Positions 39,476 to 43,104 of a stretch of 64,000 nucleotides of DNA are shown here, piece by piece; within the stretch, counting starts at the first letter, position 1; each line of letters begins with the position of its first letter. This DNA comes from Prochlorococcus sp. MIT 1341 (GTDB taxonomy: Bacteria > Cyanobacteriota > Cyanobacteriia > PCC-6307 > Cyanobiaceae). The translations under genes and the position numbers were made by a program. The notes under the pieces are model-generated. The model was not told the origin of the DNA. It saw only the letters and a program-made list of their open reading frames with translations, and searched no databases. The DNA is taken from NCBI RefSeq assembly GCF_034092415.1, contig NZ_CP139304.1:976001-1040000 (forward strand). Direction: 5' to 3'.

Positions 39476-41203
39476 GTGTTGCGACTTGAGCGAATCTCCA
39501 AGCTGTACCCCAATAGCGAAGTCCTTAAAGACATCAATTGGGAGATTAAGTCAGGAGATCGTATAGGACTTGTTGGAGTTAATGGAGCAGGCAAGTCAAC
39601 ACAACTAAAAATTATCGCAGGCATTGAAGAAGCAACCACTGGGCAGGTTGTTCGTCAAGGCAATCCTCGTATTGCTTTTCTAAAACAAGAATTTGACGTA
39701 GATCCAGAACATACCGTCAGAGAAGAGCTCTTTCAAGCCTTCGCTGATGCAGCAAAAATCCTCCTAGAGCAACAATCTGTAGAACTGGCCATGTCTTCAG
39801 ACATGGCGAAAACTGATCCTGATCATCTAAATAATCTCATCAAAAAATTAGGCGTTCTTCATACTCAATTCGAGGCTCTCCAAGGCTACGAAATCGAAGC
39901 ACAAATTGAAAAGATTTTACCAACAATTGGATTCGAGTCTAAAGATGCAAATGAACTCGTAGGCAAGTTTTCTGGTGGATGGCAAATGCGTATCGCATTA
40001 GGAAAAATTCTTCTGCAAGAGCCAGATCTTCTTCTACTGGATGAACCTACAAATCATCTTGATATTGAAACTATTCAATGGCTAGAAGATTATTTAGTAA
40101 AGCAAACTGCCGCAATAGTAGTCATAAGTCATGATCGAGCTTTTTTAGATAAAATCTGTACCCAGATAGTCTCTACTGAGAGCGGGGTATCCCATACTTA
40201 TCTTGGTAATTACACCGCTCATCTTGCACAGAAAGAAATAGACAAAGCTGCAAACTTGTCGACCTTTGAAAGACAACAAAAAGAACTCGCTACTCAACAA
40301 GCATATATTGACAGATTTCGGGCTAGTGCCACAAGAAGCACACAAGCAAAAAGCCGAGAAAAGCTTCTAGAGAAAGTCGAGCTGATTGAAGCTCCTATTG
40401 GGGAGATTAGTAGCCCTAAATTTAGCTTCCCCGCCGCCCCACGATCTGGAAGACAAGTTGTTTTGGTAAATGATCTAAGTCATACCTTTGGAGAAAAAAT
40501 ACTCTTCCTTGGGGCAAACTTAGAAGTCGAACCTGGAGACAAAATTGCCTTTATTGGACCAAATGGATCTGGAAAATCAACACTTTTTAGACTGATCCTA
40601 GGAATTGAAGAACCTGATGATGGTAAAGCTGAAATCGGAAAGCATAATATTTTCCCTGGATATTTTGAGCAAAATCAGGCAGAAGCGCTCGACCTAGAGA
40701 AAACCGTTATCAACACAATGTTTGAGGTTGTTCCTAACTGGACCCAAACAGAAGTCAGATCTCTTTTAGGAAGTTTTTGCCTAAGCAAAGAAGCGGTTTT
40801 TAAAGAAGTCGGTCTACTGAGTGGTGGCGAAAAAGCACGACTAGCACTAGCTTTAATGCTAATCAAACCTTGCAATCTACTAATCCTTGATGAACCCACA
40901 AACCACTTAGATATCCCAGCCAAAGAAATGCTTGAGGATGCTCTTCGAGAATATGAAGGTTCTGCTTTGCTGATTTCTCATGATCGATACTTCATTTCAA
41001 GAGTAGCCAACCGAATTGTTGAACTCAAAGACGGTGAACTTGTTCTATATAAAGGAAATTACACATACTACAAAGAAAAAAAAGAAGAAGAAAAGAAAGC
41101 CTCTTTAGATGCAATGGTACTTGCCAAGAAAGAAGCAAAACGCCTCTTGAACCGAGACCGTCAAAGAAAACGTAAAGCAATCAAGAAAACCACTGGTAAA
41201 TAA
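39476..41203 (+). CDS. ABC-F family ATPase
   Basis: 575 residues from GTG, two ABC ATPase domains in one chain and no membrane spans. Walker A sites GVNGAGKS (34-41) and GPNGSGKS (about 361-368); signatures FSGGWQMR and LSGGEKAR; both halves have the LLLLDEPTNHLD/LLILDEPTNHLD form typical of ABC-F. The linker between (residues about 240-320) carries an Arg/Lys-rich P-site-tRNA-interaction-like helix. Such proteins act on the ribosome. The C-terminus is a basic coiled coil. Confidence 0.93.
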   Translation: MLRLERISKLYPNSEVLKDINWEIKSGDRIGLVGVNGAGKSTQLKIIAGIEEATTGQVVRQGNPRIAFLKQEFDVDPEHTVREELFQAFADAAKILLEQQSVELAMSSDMAKTDPDHLNNLIKKLGVLHTQFEALQGYEIEAQIEKILPTIGFESKDANELVGKFSGGWQMRIALGKILLQEPDLLLLDEPTNHLDIETIQWLEDYLVKQTAAIVVISHDRAFLDKICTQIVSTESGVSHTYLGNYTAHLAQKEIDKAANLSTFERQQKELATQQAYIDRFRASATRSTQAKSREKLLEKVELIEAPIGEISSPKFSFPAAPRSGRQVVLVNDLSHTFGEKILFLGANLEVEPGDKIAFIGPNGSGKSTLFRLILGIEEPDDGKAEIGKHNIFPGYFEQNQAEALDLEKTVINTMFEVVPNWTQTEVRSLLGSFCLSKEAVFKEVGLLSGGEKARLALALMLIKPCNLLILDEPTNHLDIPAKEMLEDALREYEGSALLISHDRYFISRVANRIVELKDGELVLYKGNYTYYKEKKEEEKKASLDAMVLAKKEAKRLLNRDRQRKRKAIKKTTGK

Positions 41204-41318
41204 AAGGATCTTTTGATCTGTCGCAAGAAAACTTCATATACCTTTAGGCAGGAAGACTTATTTTTCTTTACCTTGGCAAAACGTGAGCATATGCTGATAG
41301 AACTGCACTTGCTCAAAC

Positions 41319-41480
41319 ATGCGTATGAAGCCGCAAAAAAACACAAATTTGTTTAACCAAAGCGAATCGTCTAATAAAACAGATGCTATTGATAGTTATT
41401 TCGAATGCATAACAACTTGCTCGATCGACGATAACGAGTGCATAACTCGATGTGTAGAGGTGCTAAAGACTCATAAATAA
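41319..41480 (+). CDS. Twin-CX3C miniprotein
   Basis: 53 residues from ATG at 41319 (a second ATG is at 41325). After a polar N-terminus, the core is SYFECITTC, six residues, then CITRCVEVLK: the spacing CX3C-X6-CX3C would bring two Cys pairs together in a helical hairpin, or bind a metal. The mirrored CIT[TR]C repeats strengthen the case for a real gene. No signal peptide or membrane span. Conserved small picocyanobacterial proteins with this look are recalled, without known function. Confidence 0.65.
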   Translation: MRMKPQKNTNLFNQSESSNKTDAIDSYFECITTCSIDDNECITRCVEVLKTHK

Positions 41481-41537: not shown

Positions 41538-41587
41538 TATAAGAGCCATTAACTTAATGAAGTAATTCACATTTAATAGCTCTTATA
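41538..41587. repeat. Long inverted repeat between the CX3C gene and htrA
   Basis: TATAAGAGC-C-ATTAA (41538-41552) and TTAAT-A-GCTCTTATA (41573-41587) form arms of 15 with one mismatch around a 20-base loop. No T-run follows. It lies between the ends of the rightward miniprotein gene and the leftward protease gene, so it may serve as a two-way transcript end or be part of a small RNA. Confidence 0.4.
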
Positions 41588-41650: not shown

Positions 41651-42820
41651 TCAGAAACCTCTCATAGAAGACATTTCAACAGGAGTAACTAATAATTCAA
41701 AGCGCCTACTCCCTCTCCTAATCCCAAAACTAAGCAGAGTTCCTACCCCAAAATTATTAATTGCACTAACTACATCAGCCGGTCCCTCAATTCGCTCTCT
41801 TCCTATAGAGACAATGATATCGCCAACTTTTAATCCACCCTTTTCCGCAGGGCCTCTTGGAACAACATAAGTTATCTCCGCTCCAGGTAAAAACCCCGCT
41901 CCAGGCTGTTTAGAAGACACAGGTGCAAGACCTATCCCCACCATTGGATGACTAGCCCTTCCCTTCTCAACAAGCTGCTTAGCAATGGTCCTTGCCCTAT
42001 TGATTGGTATAGCAAAACCAAGTCCTGCCCCTGGGCCGGACCTGACCAGAGTATTGATACCTATAACCTCCCCTTCTGCATTAAGCAAGGGGCCGCCAGA
42101 GTTTCCAGGGTTTATTGCAGCATCAGTCTGGATTAAATCAAGGCGCTTTCCAGATATACCTAACTGCGACACATTCCTATTCAAATTGCTAATAATCCCA
42201 AGAGTGACTGTGTTTTCCAACCCAAAAGGATTACCAACAGCTATTGCCCAATCCCCAACCAAAAGTTTATCCGAGTCGCCCAGAGAGGCTATGGGCCATG
42301 GCCCAGACCCATCAAGACGAACAACAGCTAGGTCCGTAAGGGAATCCAAGCCAACCACCCTTCCTGAAACACGTCGACCATCCGAAAGGCCAACGATCAA
42401 TTGATCCGTTTTCTCAACTACATGAGCATTTGTTAAAACAAGGCCTTCCTTAGCAAAAATAACCCCGCTTCCTTGACTGCTCTCAACTCTTCTACGTGGC
42501 GTGGGGGTAATTTGTAAACCGAAAAAACGGCGAAAATAAGGATCAAATACAAGTCCTGGCGGCAAACCAGAAGTGCCTCTTGTACTAATGGTACGTTGCG
42601 TCTCCAGAGTGACGACGGCAGGTCCTGTTCGCGCAACTGCTTCTGACACGAACGATTTTCTTGAAAGAAGACCTTTTATCAAAGGCGTCGCTTCCAGATT
42701 GCGAGAAGGCACGCATTCGATAAAAGGAAGACAAAGTAAAGCTCCCGAAACGACAAGACCTCTTCGCAAAGAAAGCAAAGCTTGTTTTAAATGAAAGATT
42801 GACCTATCGCTGGCTTGCAT
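41651..42820 (-). CDS. HtrA/Deg-type serine protease with PDZ domain
   Basis: 389 residues from ATG 42820. A signal or anchor segment (RRGLVVSGALLCLPFI) is followed by a trypsin-like domain: His in TNAHVV, Asp in SLTDLAVVRLD, Ser in NPGNSGGPL. One PDZ domain (VGIGLAPV to VSAINNFGVG) follows. Works outside the cytoplasm in protein quality control and light stress repair. A further ATG 13 codons upstream is possible. Exact paralog (HhoA, HhoB, HtrA) not assigned. Confidence 0.93.
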   Translation of the reverse strand: MQASDRSIFHLKQALLSLRRGLVVSGALLCLPFIECVPSRNLEATPLIKGLLSRKSFVSEAVARTGPAVVTLETQRTISTRGTSGLPPGLVFDPYFRRFFGLQITPTPRRRVESSQGSGVIFAKEGLVLTNAHVVEKTDQLIVGLSDGRRVSGRVVGLDSLTDLAVVRLDGSGPWPIASLGDSDKLLVGDWAIAVGNPFGLENTVTLGIISNLNRNVSQLGISGKRLDLIQTDAAINPGNSGGPLLNAEGEVIGINTLVRSGPGAGLGFAIPINRARTIAKQLVEKGRASHPMVGIGLAPVSSKQPGAGFLPGAEITYVVPRGPAEKGGLKVGDIIVSIGRERIEGPADVVSAINNFGVGTLLSFGIRRGSRRFELLVTPVEMSSMRGF

Positions 42821-43104
42821 AAACTTTGAAGGGGTTAGCAGGCATAGCAAAATCAACAAAAAAAGCCTTGCAACCTATTTTAGGAATGATCGGACAGGTT
42901 TAATAGCAAAAAATCAGAAAAGCCGAGTGAAATGACTGAAGAATGAGAATTGAAATCTCAAGATCAGCTTAAGCGGTCTAACATCAATTAATTGTTGTGA
43001 CAAATCTCTCAGTGACAAAAAGCACTCCTTTCACAAGCTGATTCCGATCAACAGGTTTAAGAAACCCTTATTACAGCTTTCATCCCATAGACAGGTAAAG
43101 CATC

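Follow-up and report, generated by a model that had tools for sequence, protein, structure and literature searches.

A frame of 53 codons, lying in a 64,000-nt stretch of DNA (the window), raises the question of whether so short an open reading frame is a gene and, if it is, what its four cysteines are for. The window corresponds to positions 976001-1040000 of the single 1.94 Mb contig (C1) of its genome, G000. The frame translates as MRMKPQKNTNLFNQSESSNKTDAIDSYFECITTCSIDDNECITRCVEVLKTHK followed by a stop codon, and a preliminary description had drawn attention to its cysteine spacing, CX3C-X6-CX3C, with the half-motifs CITTC and CITRC. Translation reproduces this arrangement exactly, the residues concerned being Cys30, Cys34, Cys41 and Cys45.

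41319-41480, forward strand: coding sequence of the 53-aa miniprotein, a canonical copy of its family (homologues; pN/pS 0.18)
41406-41453, forward strand: twin CX3C core, with Cys30 at 41406-41408, Cys34 at 41418-41420, Cys41 at 41439-41441 and Cys45 at 41451-41453

Evidence for a gene

Among window ORFs of at least 40 aa, the pattern CX3C-X6-CX3C is unique to the miniprotein, and 30 first-order Markov resamplings of the window gave an average chance expectation of 0.03 patterned ORFs per window. The start codon at 41319 is backed by alignment to the closest homologue, L001, and among named organisms it is Prochlorococcus sp. AG-363-P19 that has the nearest relative of the ORF, with 72% identity. 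The canonical core is under purifying selection: over 44 distinct orthologous core DNA sequences pN/pS is 0.18 (pN 0.14, pS 0.79), and L001 differs from the window core by 13 synonymous and 4 non-synonymous changes. Invariance of the cysteines within this 44-sequence set is uninformative, because the pattern used for selection demanded them. A spurious ORF that acquired its cysteine pattern by chance might be suspected from the tiny size of the gene and the lack of a Pfam or NCBIfam match, but this reading has practically no credence left and is ruled out by the homologues, which reach 249 of 251 high-quality Cyanobiaceae genomes, by synteny, by the pN/pS value and by the resampling; the miniprotein is confirmed as a genuine observation and not a chance motif. 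The protein had also been said to carry no signal peptide, and by eye its sequence indeed has no hydrophobic N-terminal stretch, so that a location in the reducing cytoplasm is probable.

Gene neighbourhood and upstream element

Host copies are of two kinds, of which one, to which the window copy belongs, is syntenic and has the X6 spacing. The surroundings of the window copy contain the following features.

39476-41203, forward strand: upstream syntenic neighbour, which we take from its motifs to be a gene for an ABC-F type ATPase (ORF list, synteny)
41227-41272, forward strand: conserved element AAcTTcAca-N6-TAGGCAggAagACTcATTT-N2-CTTTACC (in the window, GAAAACTTCATA ... TTAGGCAGGAAGACTTATTTTTCTTTACC), a putative activator site plus -35 region
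41290-41295, forward strand: -10-like TATGCT, 17 nt past TTTACC, a TAnnnT box that is aligned in orthologues
41539-41586, no strand assigned: inverted repeat ATAAGAGC ... GCTCTTAT, terminator-like and situated between the convergent genes, its arms located by reading the sequence
41651-42859, reverse strand: convergent syntenic neighbour, presumably, again from motifs, a gene for an HtrA/Deg-type serine protease (ORF list, synteny)

The ABC-F gene lies upstream in 52 of 97 core-bearing loci and the HtrA gene downstream in 46, counts that are not independent because several loci were retrieved twice (the HtrA cluster has 47 entries, with one locus double). The inverted repeat was not reported by the consensus scan, which allows loops of 3-8 only, and the TATGCT box was likewise unreported by it.

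Canonical copies share the conserved element, then about 17 nt and then the TAnnnT box, a total of about 70 nt that corresponds to 41227-41295 in the window. With up to 7 substitutions, the 29-nt centre of the element was found in 36 of 48 canonical upstream sequences, and with a lax limit of 12 in 46 of them, the two lacking it being those of L060 and L067. A 28-nt version, again with up to 7 substitutions, was present at 15 of 127 other loci, at none of 63 phage loci, and nowhere when reversed as a control; all 15 of these non-phage loci have the ABC-F gene. RNAalifold detected no consensus RNA structure in the aligned element (45 distinct sequences) and Rfam gave no relevant match for it, so an RNA reading was set aside and the element is taken as DNA. 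Its 14-mer has a single exact occurrence in the G000 genome and, with up to 2 mismatches, 12 occurrences compared with 9 for the reversed control; counts so near the control do not support a regulon sharing the element. Judged from its sequence, the upstream region would be a promoter that serves this gene specifically and includes a site for an activator.

Distribution of the family and conservation of its cysteines

A single-sequence search with the window protein (E <= 1) gave matches in 58 of 99 genomes, comprising 57 of 61 Cyanobiaceae and 1 of 38 others (E 0.56). A 22-row profile (E <= 0.01) matched 379 of 400 Cyanobiaceae genomes, with one to five copies per matching genome, and the 249 matches among 251 high-quality genomes (at least 90% complete, at most 5% contamination) mean that the family has been kept almost throughout a group that holds the ocean's dominant phototrophs. 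The preliminary description had made its case depend on conserved homologues with the four cysteines, and these exist. When genomes were drawn class-wide (291 genomes), 50 matched at E <= 0.1, namely 36 Cyanobiaceae and 14 others, and all 14 of the latter matches were partial, with E >= 0.002. An outlier match in G091, at locus L172 (examined as an ORF list), was also partial, falling within a frame of 201 aa, and was left out. On these searches the family, which has no name, appears to be restricted to Cyanobiaceae among the cellular genomes covered.

The four-Cys core is present in 144 of the 145 host and viral loci collected, the exception being L015, with Ser for Cys 2; several of the 145 are one place retrieved twice, and part of them were found with peptide patterns containing the first CX3C and are biased towards cysteine to that extent. 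The 60 loci found free of such bias gave 60 core matches, 51 of them distinct. Among 68 members, the loop between the CX3C motifs has 6 residues in 36, 8 in 24 and 9 in 8, and it reaches 10 in one divergent type, while the CX3C spacings are constant throughout. All four cysteines are retained from the window protein through remote paralogues to most phage forms. The losses seen among the translated members, from which other members may differ, hit inner cysteines only: Cys 2 in L015, and Cys 3 in the phages P-TIM68, S-B43 and RN05-S.

A coupled partner gene

The window copy has no adjoining partner gene. The other copies in G000 (L163, L164 and L165) are each directly followed by a second small gene, the stop and start codons overlapping as ATGA or TAATG, and from these overlaps the partner is judged to be translationally coupled to the miniprotein paralogues.

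L163:3609-3998, reverse strand: partner gene
L164:4094-4474, forward strand: partner gene
L165:3745-4008, reverse strand: partner gene

Two modules can be recognized in the partner. Module I reads YIS..GGSI.CF.GD.GRIFRSCS...C.YS.DLHSAK.YL..LE, and module T, which is usually present as well, reads QRKTTLKWN.DGELS.IDM.RIL...LT.CDLACD, mostly with a CX3C at the end; the latter module stands alone in some copies (e.g., L005 and L008). Directly downstream of a miniprotein match and on the same strand lie 34 of 50 partner matches (E <= 1e-18) and, viewed from the other side, a partner module was found no more than 450 nt downstream in 27 of 84 miniprotein matches (41 genomes, of 70 searched). At one locus of the Cyanobiaceae genome G032 (L166:3967-4566, reverse strand), module I and the miniprotein core share a 200-codon open frame, which suggests that the two act together.

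In Pfam and NCBIfam the partner had no match that passed a family cut-off; it matched nothing in PADLOC, gave only weak matches in PHROGs (best phrog_22770, at 0.0023), and was not confirmed in any viral contig. Cultured phages yielded only weak matches to module T, in P-SSM7 and in one single-cell virus; the P-SSM7 match (E 0.02) is an ORF at L265:1426-1701 on the forward strand (T4-like GC 722), away from the miniprotein gene. A structure model of the partner, with a mean pLDDT of 46, was too poor to use. Solo copies of module T were also seen elsewhere in the genome, at L247:2932-3123 (forward strand) and L249:2766-2990 (reverse strand), encoding 64 and 75 aa, each within about 1-2.5 kb of an antenna-like gene that, by its look, we assume to be of the Pcb/IsiA type.

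Homologues in cyanophages

The window protein weakly matches phrog_665 (E 9e-5), a set of hypothetical proteins of cyanomyoviruses known as T4-like gene cluster GC 363, which is in turn matched by the GC 363 protein of S-ShM2 at 8.3e-30 and by a viral bridging form at 7.8e-12. With the bridging form as query, tblastn at E <= 1 found 165 phage records, of which 164 had a query coverage of 80% or more. By their names, all are phages of Synechococcus or Prochlorococcus, cyanophages or marine viruses; many are near-identical isolates, and a single query may miss divergent members. Relaxing the limit to E <= 10 gave 172 records, including three Vibrio or Salmonella entries that presumably match by chance. 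A further 46 loci came from 50 stretches of IMG/VR.

Of 17 cultured-phage proteins that were translated, 14 have all four cysteines, with loops of 6, 7 or 9 residues, and the remaining three are those that lack Cys 3. The phage members of phrog_665/GC 363 resemble the window protein in length (about 50 aa) and in carrying, after a Y(F/Y)xC helix with YxxC(I/L), a pair of CX3C motifs that are for the most part 6 residues apart (7 or 9 in others), but they mostly read YYECLIEC...CKRIC and begin with MHNLISYNQL, which is absent from the window protein and from hosts. Alignment of the host profile to the 14 complete proteins by hhalign gave a probability of 96 (E 3e-9). HMM cross-searches between host and cultured-phage sets gave best E values of 5.4e-5 and 6.9e-6 unmasked and of 3.2 and 0.31 with the cysteines masked, and the direct link between the two profiles thus depends largely on the cysteines. 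Most of the bridging sequences keep a link to both sets even so: with Cys-masked profiles (<= 0.01), 17 of 27 match the host profile and 20 of 27 the phage profile, and L092 matches both (4.9e-6 and 1.5e-7, respectively), although the bridging set was found by the pattern YFECIT, which favours host-likeness (the N-terminal MHNLISYNNL, by which the set is tied to the phage family, lies outside that pattern).

The viral genes occur in differing surroundings. In the T4-like context, genes for the RegA translation repressor and Hsp20 flank the miniprotein gene in L072; in contigs with genes that are labelled T7-like here, an RNA polymerase gene lies upstream (L105), a primase/helicase gene just before (L094) or a DNA polymerase gene just after (L111). 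Cultured phages carry the gene after gp46 (S-ShM2, P-TIM68, S-SM2), near gp23 (P-RSM4, P-SSM7) or near psbA (P-TIM40, S-SKS1, ACG-2014f) and, since position varies in this way, phage neighbours give no function. The neighbourhood of psbA is suggestive only: it was seen at two host loci (L176:4836-5942, reverse strand; L182:4681-5760, forward strand) and at 3 of 17 cultured-phage loci (L153, L155 and L160), with flanks of differing length. The viral contigs with T7-like replication genes at L094, L105, L111 and L114 encode a distinct type of miniprotein, with a longer C-terminal tail and overlapping neighbouring ORFs, and no cyanophage in the cultured-phage collection matched this type. In the records of P-SSM2 and S-PRM1 the miniprotein gene is unannotated despite an intact ORF (L148:5001-5138 and L152:5001-5171, both on the forward strand). 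One of many nameless cyanophage genes is hereby supplied with a host counterpart.

Predicted fold and cysteine chemistry

The four cysteines had been proposed to sit on two facing helices. The AlphaFold2 model (62 rows) supports the helical hairpin, with a mean pLDDT of 72.6, a low-confidence N-terminus and block means of 87-92 over residues 21-50, but it places Cys34 in the loop and not in the first helix.

41373-41471, forward strand: predicted helix-loop-helix, residues 19-31 and 39-51 (AlphaFold2 model)

Fixed CX3C spacings combined with a loop of variable length are as expected of a hairpin pinned by facing cysteines, and on this model the miniprotein core is probably a two-helix hairpin of that sort. 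Structural searches found no close match: in PDB, Foldseek reached no better than E 2.9, and for the 58 chains compared by VIA-align 2 the highest Z was 3.7. The fold therefore offers no functional analogue. In BFVD there was nothing at E <= 0.001, the best match having E 0.2 and the P-SSM4 protein E2PTY9 appearing at E 2.4. The restriction of cysteine losses to inner positions slightly favours two pairings, the outer essential and the inner dispensable, over a four-ligand zinc site, but with four cases in all, one at a host locus and three among the 17 cultured-phage proteins, pairing and metal can hardly be told apart.

Possible function

The preliminary description had considered metal or cluster binding or redox sensing in a reducing cytoplasm. 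The reading preferred here, held with about even confidence, is that the miniprotein is a small, soluble, cytosolic adaptor or regulator whose hairpin is locked by thiols, with a redox lock favoured over zinc. A variable and probably disordered N-terminus would precede a helix-loop-helix core of about 33 residues, in which the two CX3C motifs may face each other across the hairpin and pair as Cys30-Cys45 and Cys34-Cys41. The four thiols would lock the hairpin, a reversible disulfide lock acting as a redox switch being somewhat likelier than a permanent zinc tetrathiolate, and a host target could then be engaged through a surface that is conserved in the locked form, D-x-YFECIT...CxxxCVExL. A canonical copy with its promoter-like region is retained by nearly every lineage, and many Prochlorococcus add copies co-translated with the second small, Cys-bearing protein; on the simplest view, the cyanophage version would address this same target in infected cells. 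Carriage by both Cyanobiaceae and at least two kinds of virus likely marks a control point that is important to host and virus alike. A wider proposal may be put forward tentatively, as a possibility to which we attach limited confidence, of a clade-wide thiol-hairpin control system, in which a near-universal miniprotein with its own promoter, joined in many Prochlorococcus by a co-translated partner, has been captured by T4-like and T7-like cyanophages, which would use it to seize control of the very process that it serves in the host. If true, the most abundant phototrophs would have a small-protein regulator of a new kind, targeted by phages. Once named and described by its fixed cysteine pattern, conserved upstream element and coupled partner, the family has a function that is open to direct tests in laboratory strains.

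The main rival to a redox-locked hairpin is a structural zinc hairpin, in which one Zn(II), bound constitutively, would staple the protein into an interaction module that does not sense redox state. Four nearly invariant cysteines in a probably reducing cytoplasm would suit such a site, and in the confidently predicted model the two CX3C motifs meet at one neck; members with three cysteines exist, however (L015, P-TIM68, S-B43 and RN05-S), and the window protein belongs to no Pfam zinc family, zf-Tim10_DDP being matched by 2 of 62 members with a best E of 0.029. We regard constitutive zinc as rather unlikely.

Cytosolic copper storage proteins bind Cu(I) through CX3C motifs borne on helices. 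A store or chaperone for Cu(I) or another soft metal could be read from the CX3C pairs, from the presence of up to 5 matches per genome and from a coupled partner that is Cys-bearing and usually ends in CX3C, but a protein with only four cysteines and two helices makes an improbable store, and the 18 families listed when 62 members were compared with Pfam (E <= 1) include neither a copper-storage family nor DUF326. The neighbouring ORFs, listed mostly without annotation, are neutral in this regard.

To be judged no more probable than copper is a CP12-like regulator, in which a WDAVE-type helix and the cysteine hairpin would bind a Calvin-cycle enzyme and phages would redirect carbon flow. In relatives with larger genomes, many of the canonical copies have (S/T)WDAVE(T/S)YFEC, which may be compared with AWD_VEEL of CP12 (as given in passages of PMC9406205), and both proteins have four cysteines and are phage-encoded; the absence of a Pfam CP12 match, the different cysteine spacing and the existence of a true CP12 elsewhere in G000 (C1:947278-947481) weigh against it. 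More doubtful still is a selfish, toxin-antitoxin-like cassette of two genes, of which the window copy would be a domesticated single gene. Two tiny overlapping genes at several genome sites, with related phage sequences, might be expected of a mobile coupled pair, but there was no PADLOC match, Pfam and NCBIfam yielded nothing above cut-off for the partner, and the canonical copy, unlike such a cassette, shows synteny and conservation of its upstream element.

Comparison with known systems

The window protein matched no Pfam or NCBIfam family at E <= 10, and searches of PADLOC and of PDB sequences gave no family-level match. The listings, abstract beginnings and passages of the literature that were covered, including PMC2602986, contain no description identified as that of the family or of GC 363, which does not establish its absence from print; in the main text of PMC3037559, '363' appears only in a reference.

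When 62 members were compared with Pfam (E <= 1), the 18 families listed included DUF7772, Defensin-like, Toxin_20, COX6B and zf-Tim10, weak matches that look to be driven by cysteine spacing, and in ten members re-scanned with the Pfam cut-offs every match fell under its cut-off. DUF7772 (PF24977) was matched by 9 of the 62 (best E 8.6e-4), L072, the one re-scanned member with a match to it, reaching 16.5 bits against a cut-off of 25, and not by the window protein. For COX6B/CHCH (PF02297), a twin CX9C family, the cut-off is 26 bits and the best member (L094) scored 18.7, and this family was rejected on score and spacing, the miniprotein having CX3C. Membership of zf-Tim10_DDP (PF02953) was rejected since the window protein has no match to that profile. 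The small TIM proteins, to which that profile belongs, and the alpha-hairpinins of plants, are twin-CX3C helical hairpins with longer loops that act in oxidised eukaryotic compartments. They share with the miniprotein, where the hairpin is predicted, two CX3C motifs facing across the helices, but differ from it in loop length and in their oxidised, eukaryotic setting.

Among small proteins of cyanobacteria, the NsiR6-type protein is similar in having four conserved cysteines and in the redox or metal role proposed for it, but it has C-X2-C (CPVC) as its first pair and is spread across the whole phylum, whereas the miniprotein has CX3C and appears confined to Cyanobiaceae (passages of PMC5126843). 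PSHCP, a hyper-conserved protein of 62 aa in Prochlorococcus and Synechococcus, is likewise tiny and universal in the same clade; according to passages of PMC4215834 it has no zinc-type Cys/His and lies beside rpl19 and tRNA-Trp, and identity with it was rejected because the window protein has four cysteines and different neighbours. CP12 (PF02672) resembles the miniprotein in general character, being small, with four cysteines, found in photosynthetic hosts and carried by cyanophages, and the WDAVE of many canonical members recalls its core. Its cysteine pairs, C-X7/8-C and CxxxPxxxxC, differ from the twin CX3C of the miniprotein (passages of PMC9406205), and Pfam CP12 was matched neither by six diverse members (E <= 10) nor by the 62 (E <= 1), so that membership was rejected and CP12 is kept as an analogy only. 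As such, it may serve as the precedent for a redox lock in a small protein that phages also carry (PMC9406205, in part).
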